Shown: piece by piece, positions 461-61,415 of the stretch
Position numbering within the stretch: position 1 is the first letter of the stretch
Layout of the letters: the number at the start of each line of letters is the position of its first letter
Origin: Mimachlamys varia
Taxonomy: Eukaryota > Mollusca > Bivalvia > Pectinida > Pectinidae
Assembly: GCA_947623455.1 (NCBI GenBank)
Contig: OX392530.1
Span: 35,743,405 to 35,807,404, forward strand
Reading direction: 5' to 3'
Length of the DNA: 64,000 bases
The notes under the pieces: model-generated
What the model saw: the letters and a program-made list of their open reading frames with translations, nothing else
Database searches by the model: none
Told to the model about the DNA's origin: nothing
Translations under genes and position numbers: made by a program

Positions 461-589
461 ACGTCTATGTTTAAGCGTGATGACCCTCACGACGTAGAAG
501 GCGTAATGTTTTTCGGAGTTCAGGGTGATGTTGAATGTCGCAGTGTTGATCGGGTCGTCCATGTTGGGCCAATACTTGTAGCATTTGTT
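461..589 (-). CDS. Gene A phosphatase exon, motif M7
   Basis: A 129-bp exon, phase 0-0, acceptor TTAAATCAG and donor GTAAGT. It begins NKCYKYWPNMDDPIN (KCxxYWP, M7) and ends VVRVITLKHRR, the strand leading towards the WPD-loop exon, which lies left of the window. Confidence 0.82.
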
Positions 590-872
590 CTGATTTAACA
601 GTAAGAGGAATGAAAACTCGGTTATAAACACTGTTTTATTGTTTCAGAATTACTTATTTAACACATCAAACAAGTTCTTTTATGTGATAACGATTTAAAT
701 TTTAACAAAATAGCAAATGAACTTATATTTTAATAAAATCATCGTGTGAGCTGATATTACTTTTAAGATATATTTTTGTTAAATCTATAGAAAAAACATA
801 TAGCTTTACTTTTCCGAGGGTTTCGTTTAGTTTGATTATAATCATGCAATATTTGCTGCATACAAGTCTTAC

Positions 873-970
873 TTTTCCATTTTCGTATAAATTAGCCAAC
901 ATCGCTATTGTTTGACATTTCTGTTGCCAAATCATCAGCCAAAACGTCTCAGAAGTCTTTGTCTTTGGTC
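873..970 (-). CDS. Gene A phosphatase exon, motifs M5-M6
   Basis: A 98-bp exon, phase 1 to 0, acceptor AATGTAG and donor GTAAGA. It reads GPKTKTSETFWLMIWQQK then CQTIAMLANLYENGK, matching DFWxMIW (M5) and IVMLTxxxE (M6). The usual DFWRM is ETFWLM here. Confidence 0.82.
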
Positions 971-1251
971 CTACATTAAAAAATTGCATAGTTTTAAATT
1001 ATCCTTTCATTAACTCGTATGGTTTTCATTAAATATCTACTCTGAGTAAGTTGATTAATTTATGATCGCCCCAGGCCAATATAGCAGGCCGAAAATCAAT
1101 AACTCGGCCAATACAGAAATAAGACTTTATTATACCTTTGATAAAATGATATTGCTAAATGCAAAGGTATTAAACATAATTATAAATAAAATTCGTATGA
1201 CCTATTCAATCAATGTACTTGATTAAGAATGATTAAGAGTAATTAAGTTAC

Positions 1252-1288
1252 CTTGAACTGCAATGTAGACTTTTGATCTGGATGTGCT
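1252..1288 (-). CDS. Gene A phosphatase micro-exon, motif M4
   Basis: A 37-bp micro-exon, phase 0 to 1, acceptor CTTTTGTAG and donor GTAACT. It reads STSRSKVYIAVQ, matching the YIAxQGP motif once joined to the next exon. Such a short exon at this position is usual in receptor phosphatase genes. It was found from the phase and motif gap between its neighbours. Confidence 0.78.
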
Positions 1289-1635
1289 CTACAAAAGTAA
1301 AATTATAATATAGTAAAAAGGTCTTTTCACCCTAATTTATTACATATAAATATTTTACAAATATCCAAAACGGCACAGATTATATCAACATACGAGAGAA
1401 ACGTTTCGAACTGTGCATTTGAAATCACCTCACGGAATGTGGTCCTCAGTGGAATAACCTTAACAAATCTGGTCAAATTACAAATATAAATTATACAGTT
1501 TATCATTTTATTGGAAAATATGCTATTAATTTTGTCCATATGACGTTGTTTTATCAAATTGCTGTCTGATTTATTTTAGCCATTACCGACCATTACACGA
1601 TTATTGTCTATCAATGCAGTTGAATAAGTTCTTAC

Positions 1636-1715
1636 GTCGTCGATAAAGTTTGCGTTGATATAATCTGATCCCGGTTTCGAACCCTGATCCTTGATAATCA
1701 CCCTGGAGTGGTCAT
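1636..1715 (-). CDS. Gene A phosphatase exon, motifs M2-M3
   Basis: An 80-bp exon with acceptor TTCTGTAG and donor GTAAGA. It reads DHSRVIIKDQGSKPG then SDYINANFIDD, matching DHSRVxL (M2) and DYINAxFI (M3) of classical tyrosine phosphatases. Confidence 0.85.
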
Positions 1716-2170
1716 CTACAGAAAAGCAATGGAATTACGGTAAACTGTTGGTACCATACGTATGGATATCAGGCATGGTCGGATGTATAGCAAATTGAAA
1801 TTTCTTTAATTCCAATATCAGTCTCACCGCGTTATCTCAAAATTGATGGCAGGGCAATAAAAAAAAATAGAGTCCTCGATTATTCCAGTAATGTGAGTTT
1901 TAATGTTAAGTCTGAAGCTTTGCTGAACCCGAGGAAATATTTCGAGTATTTGAGTTATTGATGAGTTCAATAATAAAATATTGGGCTCTATCATTCATTC
2001 AATCATTACACAATTGACTTACTACAGTTTGTTGTAAGCTTTTCTTTTTACAGTGTATTGCTACATATTCAAAGCAGGTATACTATTCTGAATTACAACT
2101 TACAGCCACATAAATAAGTATGTTAATTAACTTTTCTTTTATGTAAAGTTGAAAAATAACACATATTTAC

Positions 2171-2639: not shown

Positions 2640-2869
2640 CTGGTATTCCTTGTCCAGAAGTTTATCAGCCTCTTTTTGCTCTAATATAGACCCAAAATTC
2701 TTCACGGGTATCGGAGTAGACATGTCACAATCACTTAAATCTACACCAGCGTTGGCATATACATTGTCTTCGTCGTCTACATCAATGTCATCAAATCTCA
2801 TATTTCTGTTAGTTAATATGTTTGGCTTCTGTACAGATTCAATGCGTTCCTCTTCGGGTAAGATTTCGT
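2640..2869 (-). CDS. Gene A exon before the phosphatase domain
   Basis: A 230-bp exon with acceptor GTGAATAG and donor GTAATT, phase 1 to 0. It is acidic (ILPEEERIES, FDDIDVDDEDNVYANAG) and ends in the wedge segment typical of receptor phosphatases: TPIPVKNFGSILEQK, then LLDKEYQ. Tyr in NVYANAG is a possible phosphorylation site. The segment leads straight into phosphatase motif 1 in the next exon. Confidence 0.75.
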
Positions 2870-3159: not shown

Positions 3160-6100
3160 AATAATAATAAAATAATAATATACACCATTTATATAGCGCT
3201 CTATATAATTTGTAAAATTACTCTAAAGCGCTTCACAACATGTAGATAATAATTTGATACTTACACTGCAAACATAAAGAAGTTATTACAATCTTAGCTA
3301 ATGTCATAATATAAAAAATTGCAAATAAATACGAACTACATCTACTGTACAAACAAATGTCAGTATATACATGACGTCTAAGTTGTCACTAATATGCAGA
3401 CGTGAAAAGGTACGTCTTCAGAAGTTCCTTGAATTTTGACAGAGTATTTGTTTTTCGGATAGCGGATGGTTATCTATTCCACAACGTGGCCGAAACTTTC
3501 CCAAAACACCGGTTTCCATAGGTCTCAGTACGAGATTTTGGGACACACAACAATGATTCTGTCTTCGACCTCAGTGATCGTGACGGCTGATACAGGGTAA
3601 CTAGCTCCCGTATGTACTGGGGAGCTGTTCCATCAAGTGCCTTGTATGTGTATACCAAGATTTTGTATTGTGACCTGTATTGCACAGGTAGCCAGTGCAA
3701 TGAATACAGAACAGGAGTGATGTGTTCTCTCTTTCTAACCCGAGAAACGAGACGTACTGCCGTGTTCTGGACCTTCTGTAGGCGACTTGTCAATTTGTCA
3801 GATATACCACAGAGTAGGGCATTTCCATAGTCCAGCCGTGAGGTAACAAGTGAATGAACCAAAATCGTGCATGCATCGGCAGTTATAAACTGCCGTATAC
3901 AGCCGATGTTCCTGATCTGGTAGTAACAGGATTTGGCGGTAGCATTCACTTGTTTCTCCATGTTCAGTGAACTATCAAGGTACACCCCTAGATTTTTAAC
4001 AGTTGGGACAACCTCTACAGTACTTGTTCCGATCTTGAGCTGGAGAGCCGTTGATTGCTTACACTTTGGAGAAAAGACGATCAGTTCCGTCTTTTCCTGA
4101 TTTAGTTTTAGCATGTTGGCATTCATCCAGCTTCTGATGTCTGTCAGACAAGCTTCCAGATTTTCTGATACGGTGTCCCAGCTGTCCTGTGGTCTGATGA
4201 CCATGTAAATCTGTGTGTCATCAGCATAACAATGATAGCAAAGGTTATGTCTATGACAAATCTCACCGATTGGTTTTGAATACATGCAGTATTTACGGGG
4301 TCCTAACACCGACCCTTGAGGAACCCCATAATCCAGCATGCTGTCACGTGAAACAGAAGATCCGATAGCAATACACTGCCGTCGATCACCTAGATAGGAC
4401 TGTATCCAGCATAATGCGTCGTCAGTCACTCCATACGAATACTCCAGACGTTTATGGAGTATGCTATGGTCAATGACGTCGAATGCAGCTGACAAGTCAA
4501 GCATGACGAGCACCGCTCTGCACTTGTTATCCAATGCAGAAGCTATGTCGTTATGCACACGTAGGAGGGCCGTCTCTGTTGAGTGTCCCATGCGATAGGC
4601 CGATTGCAGGTTGTCATGGAGACTGTTTGCATGGAGATGGGCCTCTAAACGCCGGGACACAACCTTCTCAAAGATCTTAGACAGAAAAGGCAAATTTGAC
4701 ACTTGACGGTAGTTCTTCAACTCCTCCTTATCAAATCCAGGCTTCTTCAGCAATGGTCTTACATGTGCTTTCTTGAAACACAATGGAACCTTTGACTCAA
4801 CCAATGATTTGTTCATGATTGAGGTAATCAAAGGAAGCAGTGCTTCAAGACATTTTTTCAGAAGGTCTGTTGGAAGCGGGTCAAGCTCACAGGATTTTGA
4901 TTGCGATGTCTGAATGATTCTGCGTAGTTCATCCGGAGTAGTTGGAGTGAGCTTTGACAATGGTTCCCCGTCAAATTGATTGTCAGCCCTCATGACAGAT
5001 ACATCGTTGTCAGTTGTCGAATTCACTTCGTCAATGTTTCTCCTGATCGTGTTGATCTTATTCAGAAAGAAATCGCTGAACTTGTTTGACAAGTCTTTGT
5101 CAGTTGTACAGCTTGGCAGGATGATTTCACCTTTTTGACCCATTAGCGCTTTTGTGAGTCTAAAAAGCTGCCTGGTGTCCTTACCACATTCTTCGATCTT
5201 TTCTGAATAATAAGTCTTCTTCGATTGAACGAGAAGTGAACCAACTAACCGACATTGGTCCCTATAAATCTGATGGTGAACGGCCAATTTGGTCCTTCGC
5301 CAACGTCTTTCTGCTTTTCTGCGATTCTGTTTTTCCTCGCGTAGATTTTCATTGTACCACGGGGATTTAGGTCTCATGGTGATCACCTTTGTTTGTAGAG
5401 GTGCATGCTTTTCAATAAGGGCTTCTATACCAGACTTGTATGCTTCAACAAAGTTCATCAACGCCACCTTCGTTAGATTGAAGGGCAGAAGAAGACTGGA
5501 TATCGTTGTTGAAATCTGGTATCGAAATTTCGCGGAATTTCCGGAAGATCACCTTTTTCCTGATACGAGCTGGCCTTCTACAATTCAGTGGTGCTCGGAT
5601 AGCAAAATGATCACCAGAGGGGTTTCCCTTTACATCACTTAGACATGGATCAATAACTGAAATCGCTCCATGAATGACAAAGTTTTCTTCCCTTGTTATG
5701 ACCACATCAAGTGTGTGGCCGCGGGTGTGTGTAGCTTCTGTCACATGCTGAATCAGACCTCTGGACTCAAGTAGCCCTGAGAACTGACGAGCATCAGCAT
5801 TAGAAAGATTGTCCAAGTGAAAATTAAGGTCCCCCGTGATAATTATTTCTTGTGGCACAACAACCTGGTGGTCTATAAAGGTAGGCCACTCGTCAAAAAA
5901 CACAGTATTTCTGAGTTCGTTCTGTTTAAATAGAGGAGGCCTGTAAATGATGCACAACCTGAATTGTTCATCCTCGGCAATGACAGAGCAAGTCAAGTGC
6001 TCAAAGTGTGTGAATACCTCATCATGGCTAGGAGAGAGATTTGTCACACTCAGGCCTTTCTTAAACAGAACAGCCACACCACCACCACGTCTGCCGTCTC

Positions 6101-6402
6101 GAGCATTGTGGATGAATCCATAACCAGTTGGTATCAGCTCAGCAAGAACTTGGTCATCGATATCTGAACCTAACCAGGTTTCTGTCAGGGCAAGAATGTC
6201 AATGTCCTGAGATATTATAAAATCTCTCATGGACGATGACTTTTTCTTCACCGAGCGGCAGTTTAAGGATACTAAATACAGTGGATTGATCGACTTCGGG
6301 TAACCGGTTGTTGTTGGCTTTACGACGTGTAAATTCTCGTACGATACTGATGGTATTGGAATCCGTGTGGAATTATCGTATCGAGAACGCACAATAGTGT
6401 CG
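3160..6402 (-). mobile_element. LINE copy 1 (CR1/L2-type), 5'-truncated and inactivated
   Basis: Leftmost of three head-to-tail copies. Its 3' end (left) is an AAT-rich tail with the AGCGCTATATAAATG-like signature seen in many invertebrate L2-type elements. It starts (right) at TCGACACTATTGTG, the same internal point as copy 2. It is more diverged from copies 2 and 3 over most of its length, but matches copy 2 in the first part of the endonuclease. Confidence 0.85.
3430..6402 (-). pseudogene. LINE copy 1 endonuclease-reverse transcriptase, broken
   Basis: It encodes the same protein as copy 2, with two breaks. A one-base insertion near 5450 (CAACAAAGTTC against CAACGAGTTC in the others, plus strand) shifts the frame after the endonuclease domain. 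A TTA to TAA change near 3470 stops translation after SATLWNR, cutting the C-terminal end. The YADD, GVPQGSVLGP and GDLNFHLD motifs are still present in the two open parts (5445-6428 and 3470-5467). Confidence 0.85.
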
Positions 6403-6403
6403 A

Positions 6404-9400
6404 TAATAATAATAATAATATACAACATTTATATAGCGCTCTATATAATTTGTAAAATTACTCTAAAGCGCTTCACAACATGTAGGTAATAATTTGATAC
6501 TTACACTGCATAAATAAAGAAGTTATTACAATCTAAGCTAATGTGATAATATAAAAGTTTGCAAATAAATACGAACTACATCTACTGTAGATAAACAAAT
6601 GTCAGTATATACATGACGTCTAAGTTGTCACTAATATGCAGACGTGAAAAGGTACGTCTTCAGAAGTTTCTTGAATTTGGCCAGAGTATTTGTTTTTCGG
6701 ATAGCAGATGGTAATCTATTCCACAACGTGGCCGACACTTTCCCAAAACACCGGTTTCCATAGGTCACAGTACGAGATTTTGGGACACACAACAATGATT
6801 CTGTCTTCGACCTCAGTGATCGTGACGGCTGATACAGGGTAACTAGCTCCCGTATGTACTGGGGAGCTGTTCCATCAAGTGCCTTGTATGTGTATACCAA
6901 GATTTTGTATTGTGACCTGTATTGCACAGGTAGCCAGTGCAATGAATACAGAACAGGAGTGATGTGTTCTCTCTTTCTAACCCGAGAAACGAGACGTACT
7001 GCCGTGTTCTGGACCTTCTGTAGGCGACTTGTCAATTTGTCAGATATACCACAGAGTAGGGCATTTCCATAGTCCAGCCGTGAGGTAACAAGTGAATGAA
7101 CCAAAATCTTGCATGCATCGGCAGTTATAAAATGCCGTATACAGCCGATGTTCCTGATCTGGTAGTAACAGGATTTGGCGATAGCATTCACTTGTTTCTC
7201 CATGTTCAGTGAACTATCAAAGTACACCCCTAGATTTTTAACAGTTGGGACAGCCTCTACAGTACTTGTTCCGACCTTGAGCTGGAGAGCCGTTGATTGC
7301 TTACACTTTGGAGAAAAGACGATCAGTTCCGTCTTTTCCTGATTTAGTTTTAGCATGTTGGCATTCATCCAGCTTCTGATGTCTGTCAGACAAGCTTCCA
7401 GATTTTCTGATACGGTGTCCCAGCTGTCCTGTGGTCTGATGACCATGTAAATCTGTGTGTCATCAGCATAACAATGATAGCAAAGGTTATGTCTATGACA
7501 AATCTCACCGATTGGTTTTGAATACATGCAGTATTTACGGGGTCCTAACACCGACCCTTGAGGAACCCCATAATCCAGCATGCTGTCACGTGAAACAGAA
7601 GATCCGATAGCAATACACTGCCGTCGATCACCTAGATAGGACTGTATCCAGCATAATGCGTCGTCAGTCACTCCATACGAATACTCCAGACGTTTATGGA
7701 GTATGCTATGGTCAATGACGTCGAATGCAGCTGACAAGTCTAGCATGACGAGCACCGCTCTGCACTTGTTATCCAATGCAGAAGCTATGTCGTTATGCAC
7801 ACGTAGGAGGGCCGTCTCTGTTGAGTGTCCCATGCGATAGGCCGATTGCAGGTTGTCATGGAGACTGTTTGCATGGAGATGGGCCTCTAAACGCCGGGAC
7901 ACAACCTTCTCAAAGATCTTAGACAGAAAAGGCAAATTTGACACTTGACGGTAGTTCTTCAACTCCTCCCTATCCAATCCAGGCTTCTTCAGCAATGGTC
8001 TTACATGTGCTTTCTTGAAACACAATGGAACCTTTGACTCAACCAATGATTTGTTCATGATTGAGGTAATCAAAGGAAGCAGTGCTTCAAGACATTTTTT
8101 CAGAAGGTCTGTTGGAAGCGGGTCAAGCTCACAGGATTTTGATTGCGATGTCTGAATGATTCTGCGTAGTTCATCCGGAGTTGTTGGAGTGAGCTTTGAC
8201 AATGGTTCCCCGTCAAATTGAATGTCAGCACTCATGACAGATACATCGTTGTCAGTTGTCGAATTCACTTCGTCAATGTTTCTCCTGATCGTGTTCATCT
8301 TATTCAGAAAGAAATCGCTGAACTTGTTTGACAAGTCTTTGTCAGTTGTACAGCTTGGCAGGATGATTTCACCTTTTTGACCCATTAGCGCTTTTGTGAG
8401 TCTAAAAAGCTGCCTGGTGTCCTTACCACATTCTTCGATCTTTTCTGAATAATAAGTCTCCTTCGATTGAACGAGAAGTGAACCAACTAACCGACATTGG
8501 TCCCTATAAATCTGATGGTGAACGGCCAATTTGGTCCTTCGCCAACGTCTTTCTGCTTTTCTGCGATTCTGTTTTTCCTCGCGTAGATTTTCATTGTACC
8601 ACGGGGATTTAGGTCTCATGGTGATCACCTTTGTTTGTAGAGGTGCATGCTTTTCAATAAGGGCTTCTATACCAGACGTGTATGCTTCAACGAGTTCATC
8701 AACGCCACCTTCGGTAGATTGAAGGGCAGAAGAAGACTGGATATCGTTGTTGAAATCTGGTATCGAAATTTCGCGGAATTTCCGGAAGCTCACCTTTTTC
8801 CTGATACGAGCTGGCCTTCTACAATTCAGTGGTGCTCGGATAGCAAAATGATCACCAGAGGGGTTTCCCTTTACATCACTTAGACATGGATCAATAACTG
8901 AAATCGCTCCATGAATGACAAAGTTTTCTTCCCTTGTTATGACCACATCAAGTGTGTGGCCGCGGGTGTGTGTAGCTTCTGTCACATGCTGAATCAGACC
9001 TCTGGACTCAAGTAGCCCTGAGAACTGACGAGCATCAGCATTAGAAAGATTGTCCAAGTGAAAATTAAGGTCCCCCGTGATAATTATTTCTTGTGGCACA
9101 ACAACCTGGTGGTCTATAAAGGTAGGCCACTCGTCAAAAAACACAGTATTTCTGAGTTCGTTCTGTTTAAATAGAGGAGGCCTGTAAATGATGCACAACC
9201 TGAATTGTTCATCCTCGGCAATGACAGAGCAAGTCAAGTGCTCAAAGTGTGTGAATACCTCATCATGGCTAGGAGAGAGATTTGTCACACTCAGGCCTTT
9301 CTTAAACAGAACAGCCACACCACCACCACGTCTGCCGTCTCGAGCATTGTGGATGAATCCATAACCAGTTGGTATCAGCTCAGCAAGAACTTGGTCATCG

Positions 9401-9643
9401 ATATCTGAACCTAACCAGGTTTCTGTCAGGGCAAGAATGTCAATGTCCTGAGATATTATAAAATCTCTCATGGACGATGACTTTTTCTTCACCGAGCGGC
9501 AGTTTAAGGATACTAAATACAGTGGATTGATCGACTTCGGGTAACCGGTTGTTGTTGGCTTTACGACGTGTAAATTCTCGTACGATACTGATGGTATTGG
9601 AATCCGTGTGGAATTATCGTATCGAGAACGCACAATAGTGTCG
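6404..9643 (-). mobile_element. LINE copy 2, middle unit, mosaic
   Basis: A 3241-bp period separates copy 2 from copy 3. From the 3' tail up to about 8790, copy 2 matches copy 3 and differs from copy 1; beyond about 9061 it matches copy 1 and differs from copy 3. It begins at the same truncated 5' point as copy 1. Confidence 0.87.
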
Positions 9644-9669
9644 ATAATAATAATAATAATATACAACAT
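6631..9669 (-). CDS. LINE copy 2 endonuclease-reverse transcriptase ORF (N-terminally truncated)
   Basis: An open frame of 1012 codons. The first dozen residues (MLYIIIIIIDTIV) come from the AAT tail of copy 3 upstream, read through into the truncated ORF, so the natural start is missing. The apurinic-type endonuclease follows (SLNCRS, LTETWL, RPP, GDLNFHLD, SGDHFAI), then reverse transcriptase (YRQVSNLPFLSKIFEKV, LDLSAAFDVIDH, GVPQGSVLGP, YADD) and the C-terminal region ending LLKTYLFTSAY. All catalytic residues I can name are present. About 100 residues of N-terminal sequence found in copy 3 are absent. Confidence 0.85.
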   Translation of the reverse strand: MLYIIIIIIDTIVRSRYDNSTRIPIPSVSYENLHVVKPTTTGYPKSINPLYLVSLNCRSVKKKSSSMRDFIISQDIDILALTETWLGSDIDDQVLAELIPTGYGFIHNARDGRRGGGVAVLFKKGLSVTNLSPSHDEVFTHFEHLTCSVIAEDEQFRLCIIYRPPLFKQNELRNTVFFDEWPTFIDHQVVVPQEIIITGDLNFHLDNLSNADARQFSGLLESRGLIQHVTEATHTRGHTLDVVITREENFVIHGAISVIDPCLSDVKGNPSGDHFAIRAPLNCRRPARIRKKVSFRKFREISIPDFNNDIQSSSALQSTEGGVDELVEAYTSGIEALIEKHAPLQTKVITMRPKSPWYNENLREEKQNRRKAERRWRRTKLAVHHQIYRDQCRLVGSLLVQSKETYYSEKIEECGKDTRQLFRLTKALMGQKGEIILPSCTTDKDLSNKFSDFFLNKMNTIRRNIDEVNSTTDNDVSVMSADIQFDGEPLSKLTPTTPDELRRIIQTSQSKSCELDPLPTDLLKKCLEALLPLITSIMNKSLVESKVPLCFKKAHVRPLLKKPGLDREELKNYRQVSNLPFLSKIFEKVVSRRLEAHLHANSLHDNLQSAYRMGHSTETALLRVHNDIASALDNKCRAVLVMLDLSAAFDVIDHSILHKRLEYSYGVTDDALCWIQSYLGDRRQCIAIGSSVSRDSMLDYGVPQGSVLGPRKYCMYSKPIGEICHRHNLCYHCYADDTQIYMVIRPQDSWDTVSENLEACLTDIRSWMNANMLKLNQEKTELIVFSPKCKQSTALQLKVGTSTVEAVPTVKNLGVYFDSSLNMEKQVNAIAKSCYYQIRNIGCIRHFITADACKILVHSLVTSRLDYGNALLCGISDKLTSRLQKVQNTAVRLVSRVRKREHITPVLYSLHWLPVQYRSQYKILVYTYKALDGTAPQYIRELVTLYQPSRSLRSKTESLLCVPKSRTVTYGNRCFGKVSATLWNRLPSAIRKTNTLAKFKKLLKTYLFTSAY

Positions 9670-15229: not shown

Positions 15230-15653
15230 TATTTAACCCTGGACTGCTGACAAACAAACTAACAACACAAGGATTTGAGAGATGCAGGTTGATAAGATCT
15301 ATGGGCAAGTTTTATGGTCGCCATCTTTGTCTCATTGAGAAATATTCTGTATCTTTAAGTGATATGAAAATGGGACGTTTTTGAGTATGATCATTAGTGT
15401 GTTTACTTATTGTGATTGACAATGATACTTGGTTCTCATTTTGAGAACTTAATGTTTACTTTGATGTGACAAACATTTACATGGTGGGTGTCGTCGATCA
15501 CGCAGAAGACGCTTACTCTTCCGGGACACCTGGTCTTATTCTCTTGTACTTTTACAAGGGTCTCCATGTAAATCTTTCCTGTTCATATTTTGCCGTTTGT
15601 TTAACCGATTTTGGGTTCGGATTACGATTTTGTTGACGCTTTGGTATTCTCTA
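15230..15653 (+). mobile_element. 3' fragment of an RT-element (GTNCAPLLAD family), plus strand
   Basis: It matches the reverse complement of 24180-24540 over nearly its whole length, ending AGACGCTTACTCTTCCGG...CTTTGGTATTCTC. It is a 5'-truncated copy keeping the last codons of the ORF and the non-coding tail. Its right end abuts gene A juxtamembrane exon 2. Confidence 0.75.
15243..15381 (+). pseudogene. Reverse transcriptase C-terminal fragment
   Basis: An open stretch reading LLTNKLTTQGFERCRLIRSM, then GKFYGRHLCLIEKYSVSLSD, then a stop. This is the C-terminal signature (KFYGRHxxLIxKY) that follows the palm domain in the GTNCAPLLAD class of reverse transcriptases. The matching piece downstream of the RT at 24541 contains an in-frame stop, so this fragment shows the better-preserved C terminus. 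It is too short to be functional. Confidence 0.7.
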
Positions 15654-15984: not shown

Positions 15985-16061
15985 GCAGTCCAGTATCTTT
16001 GTTGAAGTGTATCGTGCTTTGTTTGTATTTAGTTTGGGCTTCTCTTCCAGATTGTCGTCGT
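15985..16061 (-). CDS. Gene A juxtamembrane exon 1
   Basis: A 77-bp exon with acceptor TTTTCTCAG and donor GTGAGT, phase 2 to 1. It reads RRRQSGREAQTKYKQSTIHF and ends KDTGL, a basic juxtamembrane stretch right after the helix. The phase joins the membrane exon correctly. Confidence 0.65.
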
Positions 16062-18052: not shown

Positions 18053-18150
18053 AAAGGTAATTAACTAAGCATTATATTAACAATCTTACTAATCATGTGT
18101 TTGATGAACAAAACTTTTAGCTACGTATTTCACGAACACACTACATGTAC

Positions 18151-26199: not shown

Positions 26200-26226
26200 G
26201 TCAGTCAGTCAGACAGACAGACAGTC

Positions 26227-47868: not shown

Positions 47869-48014
47869 TCATGTGTCCACAGTTACCCCTACAGTGTCAT
47901 ACACGTTAGTGACACACCTCGTCTGGGAGTTCAGTTTCTCATAATTATTGTCTGCTGCTACTCTCCCGGAAATTGACTGCCCATTTTCAGTGTCTACGAC
48001 TTCGTAAGGCCAGT
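47869..48014 (-). CDS. Gene B last exon: tyrosine-motif tail
   Basis: A 146-bp exon, acceptor TTATATTTCAG. It starts in phase 1 and ends with TGA after 48 residues. The tail has three tyrosine motifs: DWPYEVV, then NNYEKL and NVYDTV. The last two stand as YEKL-(10 residues)-YDTV, close to the ITAM pattern YxxL/I-x(6-12)-YxxL/I, with V in the last position. Draper/MEGF10-family receptors use ITAM-like tyrosines to recruit Syk-type kinases; the same use here is inference. The phase matches the membrane exon. Confidence 0.8.
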
Positions 48015-49179: not shown

Positions 49180-49368
49180 CTGAATCTGCCTGTAACTCGT
49201 GTCCTTTGGCTTGCTGTGAGATGTCTGTCATTTGAATAGGTTCCGTAGTGTCTTTGCTCTTCATCGAGAGGCGCCTGGTCTGTACAATAACTAGGATTAC
49301 CAGCACTGTTATGACCACTCCCAATCCAGCACCTATCCCGACTGCAGCAGTATAAATTGTGTCCGTGT
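49180..49368 (-). CDS. Gene B transmembrane exon
   Basis: A 189-bp exon, phase 1-1, acceptor TCTCACAG and donor GTAATG. It reads TDTIYTAAVGIGAGLG, a helix VVITVLVILVIV, then QTRRLSMKSKDTTEP and a polar juxtamembrane stretch. RR and K after the helix are the stop-transfer signal. It has no similarity to the gene A membrane exon beyond the general pattern. Confidence 0.8.
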
Positions 49369-51014: not shown

Positions 51015-51117
51015 ATGAACGTTTTTTAATATGCTTATTAGTGCTCCAAGTTTTGTGATTGAGAATGTCGTATAAGGACGTGGTATTTACTTGGATGTAT
51101 ACAAGATTTACATGGCG
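51015..51117 (+). mobile_element. Left part of an interrupted RT-tail repeat
   Basis: It matches the tail repeat seen at 15390-15490 (ACGTTTTTTAATATGCTTAT...TATTTACTTGG...TTTACATGGCGGG) and then breaks off where the RTE element begins. The other half is at 52418-52600. Confidence 0.65.
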
Positions 51118-52417
51118 GGCGTTTATGGACCTTGAGAAAGCGTTTGATCGTGTTCCCAGGAAGGTGATCTGGTGGGCACTACGGAAACTTGGTGTCGAAG
51201 AGCGGATTATGCTCCTGGTGCAGGGGATGTATGCTAATACTCGCAGTCGCGTCCGCGTTGGTAACAGCCACAGTGATGAGTTTGCTGTGAAGGTTGGTGT
51301 CCATCAGGGATCGGTACTCAGTCCCCTCCTCTTCATTATCGTGCTTGAAACTCACGCGAATTTTGCACCGGTGTTCCCTGGGAGGATCTCTATGCTGACG
51401 ACCTGGTTATCATCGCTGACTCTCGGGATGAATGCATCAAGAGGTTCCTGACATGGAAAGGAGCTATGGAAAGGAAAGGGTTGAGGGTAAATGCTGCCAA
51501 AACAAAGGTCATGATCTGCGGTACTGGCCTCGACCAACTTCAGGATTCAGGCAACTTCCCATGTGCTGTTTGTCGCACAGTTGTGGGCAGCAACAGTATT
51601 TTATGCAGTGGCAAGCACTGGGTGCACAAGAAGTACGGTGGACTCAAGCGCCTGGCCGAGGACCCTAGTTTAAAGTGCTCTATATGCCGGGAAACTGCTC
51701 GCCCACTTGACGGTCGTCCGCAAAGCGAGGTTCAAGTTGGTCATGACAAGTTGGAGGTAGTTGGTTCTTTCTGCTACCTGGCAAATATGCTTTCAGCAGG
51801 TGGCGGCTGCGACCTTGTAACCATGACGCGCGTGAAGACTGCTTGGAAGAAGTTAAAGGAGTTGCTACCAGTTCTCACGTCACGCCATCTATCACAAAGG
51901 ACCCGTGGTCAAGTGTATAGCACTATGTTATGAGCGTTATGTTCCATGCTAGTGAAACCTGGGCACTGACAAAGCCAAACCTCCAACGTCTACAGCGCAA
52001 TGACAGGGCAATGATCAGACGGATTTGTAACATCAAGCCAAAAGATACTTCCACCGTACGGACAAGTTAGTTGCTGGGGAAACTTGGTCTTGCAGACCTC
52101 GATCCCATCTTGAAGAAGAGAAGACTCCTTTGGTATGGCAACGTACACCGATTCAGCAGTGCAATCAATTGTATACTAAACCTACAAGTTTCAGGTGGGC
52201 GCGGAGTTGGCCGTCCAAAGTTGTCTTGGAAAGAACTGACAGAAAGAGACCGCAGACACTGGAAGCTCTTAAAAGCCGACCCTCAGATCGACAAAAGTGG
52301 AGATCTGGGGTGAACACTACCATGCGTGCAGCTAGCCAGCTGTCTGGAAGGGGGACCCCTGGTGTGGACATTGCCCCCAATCCTGCAGGATAATCAAAAG
52401 AGACCTAATGAAGAATG
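51116..52417 (+). pseudogene. RTE-type retrotransposon 3' half, frameshifted
   Basis: Joined over three frames it follows an RTE-type polyprotein: FMDLEKAFDRVPRKVIWWAL, VGVHQGSVLSPLLFIIV, then (new frame) VPWEDLYADDLVIIADS, KGLRVNAAKTKVMICGT, a Cys-rich finger CAVCRTVVGSNSILCSGKHW, ARPLDGRPQSEVQVG, SFCYLANMLSAGGGCDL, and (third frame) LGLADLDPILKKRRLLWYG, VGRPKLSWKELTERDR and MRAASQLSGRGTP to the end. Frameshifts lie near 51365, 51930 and 52290. The finger has lost residues (CSG-KHWVHKKY), so the copy is dead. Assignment to RTE is by recall of conserved strings. Confidence 0.82.
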
Positions 52418-52764: not shown

Positions 52765-52860
52765 CTGAACAATAACCATTAGTCTGGATACAAAAGTTAT
52801 GACTACAATCGTGTGGGCAAATGTTGTCACAATACACGCCATAGTATCCATCTTGGCATT
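52765..52860 (-). CDS. Gene B short Cys-rich exon 2 (next to membrane)
   Basis: A 96-bp phase 1-1 exon, acceptor CGTTTCAG and donor GTTAGT. It reads CQDGYYGVYCDNICPHDC then SHNFCIQTNGYCS, a six-Cys half-module of MEGF type. No counterpart was found in gene A. Confidence 0.72.
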
Positions 52861-53297: not shown

Positions 53298-53393
53298 CTT
53301 TACAATTGCCGTTTGTCTGGTTACAGATACCTTGTTTACAGTTTTGCGGGCAACTTTTATCACAAAAAGCATAATATAGTCCAGTTTTGCACC
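53298..53393 (-). CDS. Gene B short Cys-rich exon 1
   Basis: A 96-bp phase 1-1 exon, acceptor TTTTTTTCAG and donor GTAACT. It reads CKTGLYYAFCDKSCPQNC then KQGICNQTNGNCK, six Cys. It is the same size as its neighbour, so the two probably arose by exon duplication. No gene A counterpart. Confidence 0.72.
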
Positions 53394-53819: not shown

Positions 53820-53957
53820 CTGAATGACATGAACTGCCATAGTAACCATTCATACATCCGGTTTTACATTCCCCATTTACGTGATGGCACTCCGTCATGT
53901 TGAGACACTGTCCACACGTAAAGTTACAATCTTGTCCATAAGATAAGTTTCGGCATG
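53820..53957 (-). CDS. Gene B EGF10 exon
   Basis: A 138-bp phase 1-1 exon, nearly identical to gene A 18151-18288; differences include MN for RD in GCMNGYYGSSCHS. The following intron is also about 96 percent identical over the first 200 bases by my count by eye. Confidence 0.82.
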
Positions 53958-54531
53958 CTGTGTTAAATATCAATAGAATACCATTAACAGTTTTAAATCA
54001 TATTCCCGTTTATGTAACTGTTTTTCAAATATGCAGAAATGCATTTGTAAATATCAACAATTTTAAGCACAAGTTATGGCTAGAAGACAATTGTTATTTT
54101 CTATAGCCCCTTCTAGTGGTTCTGATTACGCTTTGCACATTGCGAATAGTGATATACAATTCAATACCAGGCTTTGTTTATATCTAATTAATGTAACTAC
54201 ACAAACAAACATACCGAATAGGAGATTGGACAAAGACAATTGAGAGACTGAAGCGAACCAAAGCATGTAAACCAGATTTCAAATTACATGTATTTCAAAT
54301 GAAACTTCTATTTTGTTTTGTTAATTGGTAGAAATATAAGAAAAAAATGATTTACAGGAGGTGGAATCAACGATAAAATGAGAATGAAATTGCAGTCCTG
54401 AAACTCTCGGGCACTATTTCACGACATTTTTGTCACATTGTACATATCACCTGCATGTTAAGGTTAACTTTGTCATTTTCACAAAGAGAATGGAGAAACA
54501 TATCACGATAATCCTATAGAGAGATACCCAC

Positions 54532-54666
54532 GTTCACTGCATGTGTCACTCATCCAGCCTGGCAGACACCCGGGTGTGGAGCAGATCCCTGTCACATGAT
54601 CACATCCACCATCCTCACAATGACATTGCTTCGTGCAGTTAGCCCCGAAACGACCTGATCTGCATT
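54532..54666 (-). CDS. Gene B EGF9 exon
   Basis: A 135-bp phase 1-1 exon. CRSGRFGANCTKQCHCEDGG to GCLPGWMSDTCSE. Partner of 18892-19026 with the same acceptor and donor. Confidence 0.8.
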
Positions 54667-55100
54667 CTGATGAAATGAATGTAAGCGTGTTGCATGTGTT
54701 GTATCGTTTTAAATGCAATAAAATCTTTTTGTATAATAAAATTATGAGACTATCTCTCAATCAAAATTAGCATCTTTATAAACAGATATGATGACTGTGG
54801 AATGACTTATGTAGACGGTTTTTGGTTATTGGTTGCTTGTTTTTTGTCATTGAAAAGGTTTCGTTGTACACTGTTACTGTTAACATACAAAATGTAAACA
54901 TGGATATTGATATCATAGTTTCATTGAAATTGTTTCGTTTATTAAATAGCTAATATATCACGGAAGCTCACAGATTCATAGAAACATTAGAATTATACTT
55001 TCAAAAAGCTATCATGACCTCTCAGAAGCTTGAATATTCCTGTTAAAGTTATTATTGGTTTTGCTGGTGTTTTAAAAAAATGTTTAATAGTTATTCCTAC

Positions 55101-55238
55101 TTGTACTGCACGAGCTTTCAATATATCCAGCACTACAGCCATCTGATGAAATGCAGATTCCATTGAAACGGTTACATCCGGGTGTCTTACAATGGCAAGT
55201 GGAGAGACAATCTTCTCCAAACAGGTTTTCGGGGCATG
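55101..55238 (-). CDS. Gene B EGF8 exon
   Basis: A 138-bp phase 1-1 exon. CPENLFGEDCLSTCHCKTPG to GCSAGYIESSCST. Partner of 19459-19596. The donor is GTAGGA, weaker than GTAAGA in gene A. Confidence 0.78.
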
Positions 55239-55634
55239 CTGTAGGTAAGTGTTTTATTATAGCAAATAGTGATGATTTTGTAGCATGATGTAGCAAAAGA
55301 GACTTCCCTGATATAAATAGAAAATCTTTCATGAATGTCAATGTAAAATGGAATTTTATAGACGAGGTCAATCATTTTATTTTAACTAACAAAAAATCAT
55401 AAAACATCATAAATAGTCATTTATTAAAGACGTTACAGTATCTTTATGAAACGTGTTAATACTATAATTTAAAAAAAAAACAACATATATATATATATAT
55501 AACTTGGCTGTATGACATGACTTAACGAGTCAATTGTATGTGATCTATACAGTGTAGACGAAATTCAATGTTTAACCAATGAAGTTCATATCAATAAAAG
55601 TCAACAAGTAATTATTTGGTGTATCTGTATTTAC

Positions 55635-55769
55635 GTATAGAGCATGACGTTCCCATCCATCCAGATATACATTCGGGTATCGCGCATGTTCCATTGACAT
55701 GGTTACATTCAACTCTTCTGCATCTGCATTGTGATGAGCAATTCATTCCAAAATAAGGAGCAACACATG
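55635..55769 (-). CDS. Gene B EGF7 exon
   Basis: A 135-bp phase 1-1 exon. CVAPYFGMNCSSQCRCRRVE to ECISGWMGTSCSI. Partner of 19901-20035. The usual GC before the GW pair is EC here, so the Cys pattern is kept but a Gly is lost. Confidence 0.78.
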
Positions 55770-55954
55770 CTAGGGAGAAAAATATACAATAAACATAAAC
55801 GTGTTGAAATGTCTATTTGATCACATTGATTAATTGAAAAAAACCAACATAAGTGAACATTTGTAATTAAGATGGGATCGGATTATTTTAGTTATAACAT
55901 TTGTAAAATATAGTTATGATAATTCAGATTTTCAGTTGAATGGCTCATATTTAC

Positions 55955-56095
55955 CTTGACTACAGGACGAACCATTCCAGCCATCTAAACATCCCGCATT
56001 CGTGTTTGTACAGGTACCAGTTGTCTTATCACATCCGGGCACGGCGCAGTGACATCGAGAGTTACACCCCTTACCGAACATTCCGTCAGAACACG
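55955..56095 (-). CDS. Gene B EGF6 exon
   Basis: A 141-bp phase 1-1 exon, the long-loop module matching 20190-20330: CSDGMFGKGCNSRCHCAVPG, CTNTNAGCLDGWNGSSCSQ. Confidence 0.8.
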
Positions 56096-56815
56096 CTGAT
56101 ACAAAGAACATGCCCGTGGTTAAGAATACACATGGTTTTCAGATGTCGTTTTCATTCCCAAGTGATGTATATTCTATGAATGAAGATCTGAGTCTGTATA
56201 CGTTAAACAAAAGCATGGATTGTGTCTTGTTACTTGCTAAAATCATTCAACATGGTCAATGTTAACATCTTTTCATTTACAATCGTGCGGTATAAACGTT
56301 ATCCGTTGTATTTTGCATACAAAATGTACCACATACTTTCTCTTAGGGAATTAATGATATGTTCCGCAATATCTTAACCTTTAAAAGGTATTTTGTAGCA
56401 ACATACCATTCTCAAATATCTTATTTAGTGAATTGTCAGTTTTCTTAATCTAAATAAAAATCGTTTGCAGGAAAAATGATATTAGATTAACATATTTTAC
56501 ATGTATGGCAAGGCTATTAGATATATGCATTTATAATTTCAACCCCTGATGCGGCAGAAAAGAAATGACAATGTGCATTCACCTGGAACTAAAAAACTCA
56601 TAACAATATACTAGTGACACATCAAAAAATTTCCCATGCGTCTCAGTGGAATAAAGAACAAATATATAATTTAACTTATTTTATTCATTTTAGTTCTAGA
56701 GTTGTCTTCTTTTCCCTTTGACATTGTTTTTGTTATAATAGTCATGTAAAAGATTATTGAATAATAAGCACCAGTCTAAAAGCAAATAAAAAGAAAAATG
56801 AATTTGTTAACTTAC

Positions 56816-56950
56816 GTGTATTACATGACTCCCCCATCCAGCCGGCCTCACATCCGGGTACGTTACAATGCCCTGTTACTGCGTTACAACCAGGGGTATC
56901 ACAGTGACACGTGGATAAACAGTTTTCTCCAAATATTGTGTGGGAACAAA
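56816..56950 (-). CDS. Gene B EGF5 exon
   Basis: A 135-bp phase 1-1 exon, acceptor CTTTTAG and donor GTAAGT. CSHTIFGENCLSTCHCDTPG to GCEAGWMGESCNT. Partner of 21071-21205. Confidence 0.8.
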
Positions 56951-57539
56951 CTAAAAGTAAGGAAACACAATATCTGATACTGGGTCAAAATAAAGACTAT
57001 TCACTGACCTCATACACAATGTATTTTGTGACTATGACATGATTGCCCGAGGTTTTTCATCTAAATAAGTTTAAAGTGTAACCTATTCATAAAGGCTAAC
57101 GTTGTGTCTTTGAGACGGAGGATCTTTATAAGGTAGTGGACAAAATATTACTCTATGTAATTAATATTGTGCATACTATGTAATAATGTAATTGCAGTAC
57201 ACATTTTCTTTTCACTGAAATTCTTTCGAATTTGTACAAATTCTTATTTTTATAATTCTACTGTTCTTGTAGAATACTGATTTTAGCTTTGGTTATTGCA
57301 TGTTAATCAACAAAACAATCAAAACAATTATTTATAAAAAAACTGATGAAAACGTTCACCTTAAATGCTCGTTTAATTGTACATTGCCTTCATTTGTGTT
57401 GTACTCGAAATTTATTTTCCAGTGTTAAATTTCTTGATACATCATATATTGATCAATAGTTTGATGATAAAAGCAATGGAATTGTAATTTCATCGAGATA
57501 AGAATTAGATAAAATAATAATACTGTTTTTTTTTGCTGT

Positions 57540-57760
57540 GTTGCCGTGTGCCCAACTGGTGCACCTGATGGTGTTTTGTATGTTGGTGTGTATATATGGA
57601 TACATGCAACTCATGTAGTAAGTGTGCATTTGTACATGCATGTGTATGTATGTGGCTGTGTGCATGCACATAATCTGGATGTATGTATCCACTTACGTGT
57701 TGGTGCATGGATACATGCACACATGCTTGCTTGTATGTGTATGTAGGCATGTGTGTATAC
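57540..57760. repeat. TG/CA-rich low-complexity stretch
   Basis: Irregular TGTGTATG, GTGCATGG and ATACATGC words. Open frames here on both strands are composition artefacts. It sits in the gene B intron EGF4-EGF5. Confidence 0.7.
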
Positions 57761-57901
57761 GTGTTATTTTTTTTCATGTAAAGTGCTCATGTTGTTATTG
57801 TTGTATATCACTTTATGTGAACACGTCTTGATGCTTTGTGCAAAATGTTTTGTGATATGTTGTGATTTCAAGAAATGTGAAACAAAAAACAAATAAAACA
57901 C

Positions 57902-58036
57902 CTTGATTACAGCTGTTCCCATGGTAACCAGCCTGGCACCCTGTTATGTTACAAACTCCGGTCACTCTGTTACATCCGGGTGTCTTACAATGACATTCCT
58001 CAATACAGTTCTCTCCAAACGTAGCAGGTGAACAAG
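57902..58036 (-). CDS. Gene B EGF4 exon
   Basis: A 135-bp phase 1-1 exon. CSPATFGENCIEECHCKTPG to GCQAGYHGNSCNQ. Partner of 21775-21909. The donor GTGTTT is weak, as is the gene A donor here. Confidence 0.75.
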
Positions 58037-58140
58037 CTGAAATTGTGATATTTGTACTGTATTTAAACAAAATACAGCGTATTACCATGATATATGTATA
58101 TATCAATACAGTGATATATTAAGCACGGTACAATTACGAC

Positions 58141-58292
58141 AGGAAATTCAAGTAACACGGAAACACAAATGACGAAGGAAGACAACTTTTTGACTCGTGC
58201 CCTATCCGGGCCTCGAACTCACGATCTCCGACACCAAATCGCCTAGCCAGAAATACCTGCGGCCGTTACCACTGTGCCAACTCGACATCTCC
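58141..58292 (-). mobile_element. tRNA-derived SINE
   Basis: On the minus strand GAGTTGGCACAGTGGTAACG contains an A box (TGGCACAGTGG, plus 58269-58279) and GTGAGTTCGAGGCCC contains a B box (GTTCGAGGC, plus 58210-58218). The spacing is longer than in an ordinary tRNA, as in Leu/Ser-type tRNAs with a variable arm. The acceptor stem does not pair, so it is a SINE, not a tRNA gene. The corresponding gene A intron lacks it. Confidence 0.7.
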
Positions 58293-58299
58293 AATAAAA

Positions 58300-60170
58300 A
58301 TGATATATGTATATAAACACCATATAGGGTTGTGTACCCCGCTGTTTCTCTTCAAGTGGGTATTTGACAAGCTGATATTGTCCTACTGCCTTATACACTA
58401 ACTGCTACTTGCCAGGTTAAGAGTTTGACAGATGTTGTCAGATTTAGTTGTCGAAATGTCTATATCTTCAAATGACATATTGAGTGTCGTTTCGTCAATC
58501 GAGATACGAAGTTTTGCGATCTTGCTAAATTCTAGTATAATATTTCCCATCAAAAACCTAGGTTTGTGGGCATTTCCGTGGAAAATTTGGAAAGATTTCC
58601 AGATTTCTGCTCTTTGTCTCCATGTTTGTTCCCTAGACGAAAACGTCTAGATTTCGAAGTCATTTTTTTATTTAAAACAAAACTTTACCATATATTTACT
58701 GTTCTACCATATATTTCGGGATTTACCACGCTTCATACCAACTATCATCTTGGGACGAATCGCCATGCTGTTATTTCAGCATCTTCACGCGTCTGTTGTC
58801 CCTGGAAATTGAATCTCTCTGTCGTTGTTCGCACATAGAGTGTACTCGATGGACGATGGCACGAACATTCAAAATTCTAACTTCGGCTAACACTAGCCGA
58901 GGGGCTTATTGATTTAAAATTTATTCTTATACTTTCAATATTGTTTTTATGCAATGTAGTTATTCTATGTGTCTTTCTGTCTTGATAAAGGAGTGAATTG
59001 CTCCGATTGACAGCACCAGTTTGTCTACACTGTTGCAATTACTTCCTTTCCTTTCGTATAAACACAATGATACATGTCTGACCCATAACTGAAGGTATAT
59101 AGATAGACTGTTTGTCCTTATCCGTCGGCTGATTATGCCTCAAGCATACATCTTGTATAATATTTGATTAAAAGGACGATTAAAGATTGTGTTTTAGTAT
59201 TGCAGATTCCAAAATGGTCAGGATAATTCTGATTTTTTTCAGAGGATTTCATGAAAACACCTTTACGGGAAAGAACAATATTACTTTATAAAGAGGAAGA
59301 AAAAACGTCAAAATACAAATTACAGGTCAGCACAAGGTGTATTTTTCGTTGTATCTCAAGTGAATCATATTCTATGAATAATGACTATATGAGTCTGTAT
59401 ACGTTAAACACGAGCATGAATTATGTTAAATAACATTATTTAAATGACTTATAAGTTAATGTTTACATCTCTTCATTTACAATCTCGAATCATTAGCGAT
59501 AAGCATTATCGATGAACTTTTGGCCACCAGATATTTAAGTTCCATACTTTATAGTAATATAAATCCAGAGTCATTTTGGCAAACCTTTAACCTTTCATTG
59601 GTATTTTTGAGCTATCTTAATACTCCTTTTCATAGAAAAATATTAGATTTAATATATTTAACATGTACGGCAAAACTATTCGATATCTGCATTTATGAGT
59701 TTACCTTGATGCGAAAAAACTAGATAACAGTGGTGGAATACCTTTATTTAGAGATTATCCGTTAACCATTATAACCGATTGAAATATTATGACTTCATGA
59801 CATGGAAGGTAACATCTAAATACAGTTTCCTACACGGTGATATAGCATATGGCCTTACCATGTGTTCACTCATCTTGAACTGAAAAGAGTTCATAACAAG
59901 ATGATGGTGTAACCTTAGAACTACGTTTGAAAAGAACGTATGACATCAAAACGTGTCCTATATGTTTCGGTGGAAAATAGAACAAATACATATTTTAATT
60001 TCTATTATTCATTTTAGTTCTAGAGTTGTCTTCCTTTCTCTCTGACAAGGTTTGTGGCATACTAGTCATGTAAAAGTTTATTGAATAAGCATAATTTGAC
60101 TAATGAATACTGAAGCAGGACCCTTCTAAAAGCAAATAAAAAAGAAACTGTATCGACTTTGTTAGCTTAC
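58300..60170. other. Gene B intron EGF3-EGF4
   Basis: From about 59075 it aligns with the gene A intron (from about 21945, with CATAACT(A/G)AAGGTATAT). The portion about 58110-59075, including the SINE and a TTCGGCTAACACTAGCCGA palindrome near 58881, is extra in gene B. No exon seen. Confidence 0.5.
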
Positions 60171-60305
60171 GTATGTTACATGTTTCCGCCATCCAGCCGG
60201 CCGTACATCCGGGTACGTAACAATGCCCTGTTATTGAGTCACAACCAGGGGTAAAACAGTGACACGTTAGGGAGCAATCTTCGCCAAATGTGGTGTTGGA
60301 ACAAA
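60171..60305 (-). CDS. Gene B EGF3 exon
   Basis: A 135-bp phase 1-1 exon, acceptor CTTTTAG and donor GTAAGC. CSNTTFGEDCSLTCHCFTPG to GCTAGWMAETCNI. Partner of 22931-23065. WMA replaces the usual WMG. Confidence 0.77.
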
Positions 60306-61280
60306 CTAAAAGTAAGGAAGCATACTAACTGATACTGACTAAAAATAAAGAACATCCACTAACCTCAAACACAATGTGACTACGAAATATTTACTGAGGT
60401 TTTTCATCTAAAACAGGCCAACTTGTAAGTGCGTAATACGCTATAATAGGGGAATCTTTATATCATAGCGGTTTTAGGGAAAAAAACCTCTTTTTCAAAT
60501 AATACCGTACATAAATATTATTATAGGTATTATGTAACAATGTAATGATATGAAACGTTTCTTTCTGTAATTCAGTCGGATATGGAAACATTTGAAATAT
60601 TCGTTTTGGACAGTACTGACTTTGATTTTAGTCATTGCCTTCCAATCAGAAAATAAAAGAATAAATTGATCTATAAGAAACTAATTAAATCATCCACTTA
60701 GAATGTCCCTTTAACTGTACATTTACATTTTGCATGTTAGCTTCCCATAAATCGATGTAAATCTGGACTGTATTCACAGTAGTACTAGTGTAGATGCAGT
60801 AAAGACGACTGTACAGTTATATTCCGTCATTTTAGGACCATGTTGAACTACGTTACGTCAACGCTTTACCCGTCGCTTCAGATAACATGTTTTATAGTTT
60901 TACGTTAATAATTAAGGTGATTGTGATATTCAAATTGACTCTTCCATTATGTTAACATAAAAGAACAACAACCTTTATGAATTTACGAAAAATGACATGA
61001 TTACGTAGTCTTTGAAATATAAATATAACCATTGAAAATGACTTAACACACAAATGCTGTACTCATTTTGTATTTATTGTCAATATGAATCAGATAAAAA
61101 GTCATGACGACCTTTTTAATGGTTAATGGCGTAATGTATTCAAGACATATTTTTCAGCAATAAATATCAGGATTGGTCATATATTGATAAAGACGTTGAT
61201 GATTAATATATTTGCATTGTAATTTCAGTGAAGAAAGAAGTTATGAATACGATACTACTGCTACAATAGCCGTGACCGAC

Positions 61281-61415
61281 CTTTACTACAGCTATCCCCA
61301 TGGTAACCAGCCTGACATCCTGGTGTGCCACAGAGTCCCGTCACTCCGTTACATCCGGGCGTCTTACAGCGACATTCCTCAACACACTTCTCTCCAAATG
61401 TACCAGATGAACAAG
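61281..61415 (-). CDS. Gene B EGF2 exon
   Basis: A 135-bp phase 1-1 exon with weak donor GTCGGT. CSSGTFGEKCVEECRCKTPG to GCQAGYHGDSCSK. Partner of 29382-29516. It is the most 5' gene B exon inside the window. Confidence 0.78.

Follow-up and report, generated by a model that had tools for sequence, protein, structure and literature searches.

Do two neighbouring genes of a scallop encode paired receptors, that is, linked paralogues whose ectodomains are much alike and whose cytoplasmic ends differ? The question is raised by a 64,000-nucleotide stretch of contig OX392530.1 of Mimachlamys varia (hereafter the window), where two genes lie head to tail on the minus strand: gene B comes first, running from beyond position 64000 to its stop codon at 47869, and is followed by gene A, which runs from its start codon at 38033 to beyond 461. 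In a first-pass annotation, both were described as lectin-EGF receptors sharing an ectodomain, gene A ending in a tyrosine phosphatase and gene B in a short tail with tyrosines resembling an immunoreceptor tyrosine-based activation motif (ITAM). Judged by sequence, genes A and B are indeed such paralogues, and probably they are paired receptors: their ectodomains would be matched by gene conversion, their unrelated ends would serve a shared ligand on one cell, and the phosphatase end would erase marks on the gene B tail. Support for this reading is good at the level of anatomy and fairly good at the level of evolution; as function it is unproven. It reaches beyond one locus.

Exon models were based on splice sites and reading frames, and transmembrane (TM) segments were located by a hydropathy rule. 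The gene A model comprises 21 exons and 909 stop-free codons up to the window edge, in the order signal exon, two exons of F-lectin fold, EGF1 to EGF10 (E1-E10), TM, two juxtamembrane exons and five protein tyrosine phosphatase (PTP) exons. The gene B model, whose N terminus lies beyond the window, has 13 exons and 583 codons ending at its own stop, ordered E2-E10, two 96-bp EGF exons of a different type (E11 and E12), TM and tail. The outlines of both genes drawn earlier hold, including the continuation of gene B into an end of its own, and were completed by the start codon and signal exon of gene A and by E11 and E12 ahead of the TM exon of gene B.

All nine EGF exons common to the two genes are equal in length (135, 135, 135, 135, 141, 135, 138, 135 and 138 bp) and enter and leave in phase 1; the collinearity first noticed, with its odd 141-bp and 138-bp exons, is therefore exact. 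Phase 1 is also used at the junction into the TM exon, in genes A and B alike. The E2-E10 coding sequences are 90% identical (NG86 nonsynonymous divergence dN 0.083, synonymous dS 0.204, dN/dS about 0.4). Introns had been called similar, and all eight common ones are 70-95% identical over aligned columns only, with unequal lengths, most so between E2 and E3 (6316 vs 975 bp). Homology of the two ends was rejected, as no blastn match at E 1e-6 was found past 18139 in gene A and 53808 in gene B. Within each gene, moreover, E2 resembles E4 and E3 resembles E5 in DNA (76-84%), which implies a two-EGF internal duplication that is older than the paralogues or was shared between them.

By its single TM segment and classical PTP domain, gene A qualifies on sequence as a receptor-type PTP (RPTP). 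Residues 685-809 of its 811-residue fragment match positions 1-124 of 234 of the Pfam profile Y_phosphatase (PF00102) at E 3.8e-36, receptor phosphatases top a search of PDB sequences (RPTP-sigma 2fh7, E 5.2e-53), and the annotated run of gene A into a phosphatase domain, with PTP exons down to 461, stands. Its best database match is Mizuhopecten P0107 (1241 residues, 70% identity over 658 columns), in which EGFs, TM and a pair of PTP domains are predicted as a single protein, the first PTP domain (D1) bearing HCSAGIGRT and WPDHD. As far as this relative shows, neither EGF exons unspliced to phosphatase exons nor a dead phosphatase is seen, the latter having been named in the first-pass annotation together with unphosphorylated gene B tail tyrosines. 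An acidic YxN motif, presumably a Grb2-type site by its consensus, lies within the first 170 residues after the TM in 92 of 97 A-type relatives (shuffle mean 29, maximum 44). Gene A is by sequence a member of the molluscan RPTPs with F5/8-type or F-lectin-type and EGF domains, which are annotated as mu-like, alpha-like or epsilon-like; the vertebrate RPTPs that lend these names have other ectodomains.

The tail of gene B (...WPYEVVDTENG...NNYEKLNSQTRCVTNVYDTVGVTVDT) carries the motif YxxL-x10-YxxV, in the form YEKL-x10-YDTV. Over 111 columns its TM and tail share 67.6% identity with those of Mizuhopecten P0001, filed as MEGF10, and are also related to those of P0007, filed as scavenger receptor class F member 1-like (gene B-P0007 58.4%, P0001-P0007 63.1%). 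Three tyrosines and their hydrophobic +3 residues are kept in all three proteins. P0001 and P0007 share 62-63% of TM and tail and just 26-38% of the ectodomain, and P0007 has short EGFs of the E11/E12 kind ahead of its TM. Because the last EGFs, TM and tyrosine tail of gene B resemble this other scallop receptor type, gene B looks chimeric, the simplest reading being a phosphatase ectodomain joined in a phase-1 intron to a P0007-type receptor end. Orthology of gene B to MEGF10/Draper was rejected: neither the part of gene B within the window nor P0001 contains an EMI domain (Pfam, E 0.001), and the P0001 tail contains no NPxY.

As for the N-terminal domain, it has the F-type jellyroll fold. 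The fucose-binding motif HX24RXDX4(R/K) (PMC5712786) is absent, with spacings of 22-30 allowed, from five scallop relatives (P0001, P0002, P0017, P0107 and P0108), so "lectin" is a statement on fold only, and only in that sense does the lectin-EGF description hold.

To compare ectodomains between species, five hand-picked EGF units (E2, E6-E9) of six proteins were placed in a tree; P0001, which carries a duplicated E8-E9, was entered with its first E8 and second E9. Genes A and B form one clade (99/97) and are 85.7% identical over these units, the Mizuhopecten forms P0001 (B-type), P0107 and P0002 (both A-type) are 86-88% identical among themselves (P0001 to the other two 86.1-86.5%), and the window genes are 75-79% identical to the Mizuhopecten forms. 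On these sequences, ectodomains appear more alike within a species than between species, as is expected of paired receptors. Along the alignment of genes A and B, 100-bp windows are 66-90% identical upstream, then about 90%, then 95-100% in E10 and the 3' portion of the intron before it (one window having 29% gaps), and 33-42% beyond a sharp edge that blastn places at 18139/53808, 12 bp past the E10 donor. The maximal-segment score is 38.9 against at most 9.5 in 1000 shuffles, which are blind to exon/intron differences. That the ectodomains stay alike while the ends stay distinct fits repeated gene conversion. A pattern of this kind is what identified Siglec-11 and Siglec-16 as conversion-matched paired receptors; in the available text of PMC5701461, their converted region groups by species and not by orthologue in each primate examined, and their similarity stops close to the 3' boundary of exon 8.

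Other bivalves, in which a search was proposed at the outset, show the same arrangement among their proteins, a shared ectodomain with unrelated ends. Protein searches gave 106 matches for gene B, 889 for gene A and 524 for P0031, the best 120 being used for each of the latter two; they are mostly molluscan by label and, with isoforms and paralogues among them, their rows do not count independent events. Among the matches listed, many RPTP relatives carry F5/8-type and EGF ectodomains, and many non-phosphatase relatives end in YQELGxx...YDxL/I. The searches with genes A and B yielded 61 non-PTP tails of 20-170 residues, non-molluscan matches kept in, and 16 of these have the canonical ITAM, YxxL/I-x6-8-YxxL/I (shuffle mean 0.2, maximum 3). 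With the P0031 search added it was found in 48 of 125 (shuffle mean 0.5, maximum 4; spacing 8 in 47 of the 48), a count enriched by choice because P0031 is itself ITAM-bearing. Classing of phosphatases by motif misfiled P0107 and P0201 in the class totals (97 PTP) and in the pair list, the 61-tail count being free of both owing to its length limits; ectodomain neighbours and partners were later classed by phmmer.

The partner analysis took in 325 proteins, of which 14 were excluded as not molluscan (P0101, P0105 and P0191 by judgement, the other 11 by label), 56 had no TM, 251 were classed and four fell out. The best phosphatase partner of an ITAM or ITAM-like receptor came from the same species by label in 25 of 30 cases, these being the 30 highest identities, a choice that favours same-species pairs. 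Such pairs are present in eight bivalve species, i.e. the scallop of the window, Mizuhopecten yessoensis, Ruditapes philippinarum, Crassostrea virginica and four further oysters (Magallana gigas, Ostrea edulis, Saccostrea cucullata and S. echinata). Oyster and clam pairs have ectodomains 62-81% alike and unrelated ends, a phosphatase versus an ITAM or ITAM-like tail, many of these canonical; in each of the 11 pairs compared, similarity is 64-77% for the ectodomains and 18-29% for TM plus tail. C. virginica alone has four distinct pair groups, with ITAM-side ectodomains 47-59% alike across groups. Among 170 ectodomains, the best neighbour of the 28 ITAM-type rows was a PTP in 10, an ITAM type in 16 and another in two. 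A FastTree ectodomain tree of 139 rows (28 ITAM-type), unsure as any tree of EGF repeats with unequal repeat number, requires at least 19 PTP/ITAM changes against a mean of 25.6 and a minimum of 21 for shuffled labels, indicating that end labels cluster more than random and yet switch often. P0031 and P0214, for example, which represent both receptor types, may lie on the same contig, judging solely from the equal size of 77,126,126 bases. Taken as a whole, the pairs suggest a home-grown on/off receptor system in bivalves. Among the ectodomain relatives from the gene B search, P0030 of Pomacea canaliculata has tyrosine-kinase Pfam domains, and gastropods may thus possess a third kind of end.

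How such a pair would work can be outlined as follows. On one cell, probably a haemocyte, the products of genes A and B would bind a common ligand. This ligand would cluster B-type receptors, a Src-family kinase would phosphorylate the paired YxxL/V tyrosines of their tails, and engulfment signalling would then be started by a tandem-SH2 kinase like Syk or Shark, as in Draper/MEGF10. Phosphatases with long ectodomains are squeezed out of cell contacts; A-type receptors would be carried into the B-type patch because both bind the same target, and there the D1 phosphatase would strip the B-tail marks, so that the threshold would depend on the ratio of A-type to B-type receptors. What vertebrates achieve with an immunoreceptor tyrosine-based inhibitory motif (ITIM) plus SHP, and flies with Draper-II plus Corkscrew, the phosphatase arm would do in covalent form. 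From the likeness of the ectodomains we infer that a shared ligand may bring both types to one patch; the opposition of their functions and the direction of the phosphatase effect would be a further step, taken by analogy, with B-type receptors presumably starting engulfment signalling and A-type receptors erasing it. In the available text of PMC13070813, circulating agranulocytes of C. virginica exceed granulocytes in 41 PTP-activity transcripts, many of them RPTPs, and in draper-like and 29 MEGF-like transcripts; the words "ITAM" and "ectodomain" are both absent from the main text of that paper.

What stands of the pair as first annotated is its anatomy, two-ended receptors with a shared ectodomain in eight bivalve species, the ectodomains of genes A and B being closer to each other than to those of their tail counterparts in another scallop. 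The short tail of gene B with its three tyrosines and stop at 47869 also stands; its motif is looser than the textbook one, the x10 spacing and the final V making it ITAM-like and not a canonical ITAM. This is one of several points that weigh against paired receptors. The catalytic loop of gene A itself falls beyond the window, the intact D1 loop having been read in P0107, and the WPD loop of P0107 is WPDHDIP, without the usual glycine (a glycine-containing search pattern matched none). In the six-row tree, the Mizuhopecten group is weakly supported (64/71, and 50/56 inside it), for which reason the species-wise pattern is firm on the window side only. P0001 has no recognisable E10/E11 and joins its end at a junction unlike that of gene B, as two separate fusions might. 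Receptor phosphatases such as CD45 and RPTP-alpha are able to activate Src kinases, which could make the A arm a helper and not an opponent. In C. virginica, the co-enrichment in agranulocytes concerns gene categories and not pairs, and granulocytes have the higher levels of other draper-like and EGF-like receptors (PMC13070813, available text).

Two alternatives carry the most weight. According to the first, no conversion occurred, and a phosphatase ectodomain was fused to a P0007-type tail separately and recently in each scallop lineage. We think this unlikely, but it is a live rival because the junctions differ: the end follows E10 and two extra EGFs in the window, and an E8-E9 repeat and one such EGF in P0001, and independent fusions would yield the same ectodomain tree. 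The identity of genes A and B is, however, graded from 66% to 100% up to the boundary, where a single recent duplication would give a uniform level; it peaks over the 3' intron as well as the exon, and the TM and tail of gene B are nearer to P0001 than either is to P0007. According to the second, which strikes us as equally improbable, these are tail-swapped duplicates without opposed roles, for example scavenger or adhesion receptors whose phosphatase arm activates Src-family kinases and whose ends cooperate or differ by cell. Cooperation is conceivable in view of such activation and of the YxN in 92 of 97 A-type juxtamembranes, which suggests a role beyond simple dephosphorylation. Against it, alike ectodomains with different ends and recurring phosphatase/ITAM pairs are expected under selection for a shared ligand, although neutral conversion could also produce them.

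The remaining alternatives fare worse. Read-through or trans-splicing might join the EGFs of gene B to the TM and PTP exons of gene A, making the locus one modular gene; the phase-1 junctions of both genes would permit this, and the stop of gene B lies about 9.8 kb upstream of the start codon of gene A. Each gene is nevertheless equipped with a TM and an end, gene A also begins with a signal exon of its own, and databases list P0001 and P0107 as distinct proteins, so we consider an exchange of ends by splicing very unlikely. An assembly or annotation artefact (haplotype copies or a pseudogene), which the repeats and three near-identical LINE copies of the window might invite, is scarcely credible given 909 and 583 codons without an internal stop, 32 of 32 internal introns that are GT-AG and in frame, the dN/dS of about 0.4, the unlike ends and the presence of both forms in another genus.

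Paired receptors as proposed here can be set beside known systems. Siglec-11/Siglec-16, like KIR, SIRP and CEACAM1/3, are paralogues with matched ectodomains and different signalling ends, as are genes A and B. Vertebrate paired receptors are built of immunoglobulin (Ig) domains and inhibit via ITIM and recruited SHP phosphatases, whereas genes A and B combine the F-lectin fold with EGFs, and in gene A the phosphatase is part of the receptor itself. Draper-I/Draper-II and MEGF10/CED-1 are, like the B-type, EGF-type engulfment receptors with tyrosine motifs. The available text of PMC8092387 describes Draper and MEGF10 as phosphorylated by Src kinases and recruiting Shark or Syk, and Draper-II as an inhibitory form that shares the ectodomain and binds the phosphatase Corkscrew through an ITIM. 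Draper-I and Draper-II are, however, splice forms of one gene, with EMI and NPxY, while the bivalve pairs appear to be separate genes whose inhibitory candidate carries PTP domains of its own. The fester co-receptors of the tunicate Botryllus are, like the A/B pair, invertebrate receptors; they carry activating and inhibitory tyrosine motifs (ITIM and hemITAM, some swapped by splicing, in the available text of PMC12065747), but have Ig/sushi ectodomains and no receptor-phosphatase end. In the literature covered (titles, starts of abstracts and selected passages, most subscription journals lying outside), we found described neither the A/B type of pairing, nor a shared-ectodomain partner of molluscan RPTPs, nor any paired activating/inhibitory receptors in molluscs. 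The annotated novelty applies to the pairing, the proteins themselves being already in databases under names such as MEGF10 and RPTP mu-like.

Coordinates of both genes are collected in Table 1. Reverse-transcribing elements and tandem repeats are found within and between them. Three tandem copies of a long interspersed nuclear element (LINE), about 3.24 kb each and 98-99% identical, occupy 3164-12886 in the intron between the juxtamembrane exons of gene A, in gene orientation; the element encodes an endonuclease and a reverse transcriptase (1110-residue open frame 13204-9875, minus strand). A reverse-transcriptase remnant lies at 51059-51930 on the plus strand, inside the E12-TM intron of gene B, and a 197-residue open frame at 24544-25134 resembles a Penelope-like reverse transcriptase by eye only, without a Pfam match. 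A 67-bp minisatellite is present in both paralogues, at 30258-30998 (11.1 copies) and 63304-63997 (10.4 copies, to the window end); since its unit consists of the EGF1 exon's 3' end together with the splice donor, many units re-offer a donor-like CAGTGTAAG or CAATGTAAG. A 21-bp tandem repeat (39251-39699, about 21 copies) is open in several frames. The open reading frame 52602-52408 (ENIYQ...) was rejected as an exon of gene B, similar sequence being present at 15487-15652 and 24125-24292 (blastn 74-75%).

Table 1. Features of genes A and B in the window. The E2 acceptors (29516, 61415) and E10 donors (18151, 53820) agree exactly with those first annotated.
Feature	Position	Strand	Basis
Gene A signal-peptide exon, start codon 38033	37937-38033	-	Reading frame, GT donor, phase 1; aligns with P0107 start
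Gene A F-lectin-fold domain, exon 1	37208-37402	-	In frame, phase 1-1; P0107 match
Gene A F-lectin-fold domain, exon 2	31416-31622	-	Exon model
Gene A EGF1	30940-31077	-	Exon model; 3' end is unit of 67-bp repeat
Gene A EGF2-EGF10, nine exons common with gene B	18151-29516	-	Exon model, alignment
Gene A EGF2-EGF6 exons	29516-29382, 23065-22931, 21909-21775, 21205-21071, 20330-20190	-	
Gene A EGF7-EGF10 exons	20035-19901, 19596-19459, 19026-18892, 18288-18151	-	
Gene A side of tract most alike to gene B	18139-18800	-	Sliding identity, blastn; gene B counterpart ends 53808
Gene A transmembrane exon	16296-16419	-	Exon model
Gene A juxtamembrane exon 1	15985-16061	-	Exon model
Gene A juxtamembrane exon 2, with DNVYANA (YxN) motif	2640-2869	-	Exon model; motif counted in relatives
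Gene A tyrosine-phosphatase D1, first five exons, cut by window edge before catalytic loop	461-2258	-	Pfam Y_phosphatase, PDB RPTP matches
Gene A D1 exons	2258-2171, 1715-1636, 1288-1252, 970-873, 589-461	-	
Gene B EGF2-EGF10, nine exons	53820-61415	-	Exon model, alignment
Gene B EGF2-EGF6 exons	61415-61281, 60305-60171, 58036-57902, 56950-56816, 56095-55955	-	
Gene B EGF7-EGF10 exons	55769-55635, 55238-55101, 54666-54532, 53957-53820	-	
Gene B EGF11, 96-bp exon, other EGF type, without gene A counterpart	53298-53393	-	Exon model
Gene B EGF12, 96-bp exon, other EGF type	52765-52860	-	Exon model
Gene B transmembrane exon	49180-49368	-	Exon model; conserved in P0001 and P0007
Gene B cytoplasmic tail exon: YEVV, YEKL, YDTV, then stop	47869-48014	-	Three tyrosines kept in P0001 and P0007

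In vertebrates, natural killer cells and myeloid cells rely centrally on paired activating and inhibitory receptors. We advance only tentatively the broader view that bivalves have, independently of vertebrates, a large immune system of this kind, in which F-lectin/EGF ectodomains were repeatedly joined to ITAM tails or to PTP domains and matched by conversion, a phosphatase brought in by the ligand erasing the ITAM signal. If it is true, a receptor-borne phosphatase in bivalves would suggest that the paired design arises repeatedly, and the pairs would provide a natural test of a receptor phosphatase meeting an ITAM where size exclusion cannot separate the two. Filter feeders, whose receptor repertoires are expanded, would have in them a candidate switch, and the pairing would give meaning to two large oyster gene sets that are labelled with unrelated vertebrate names.

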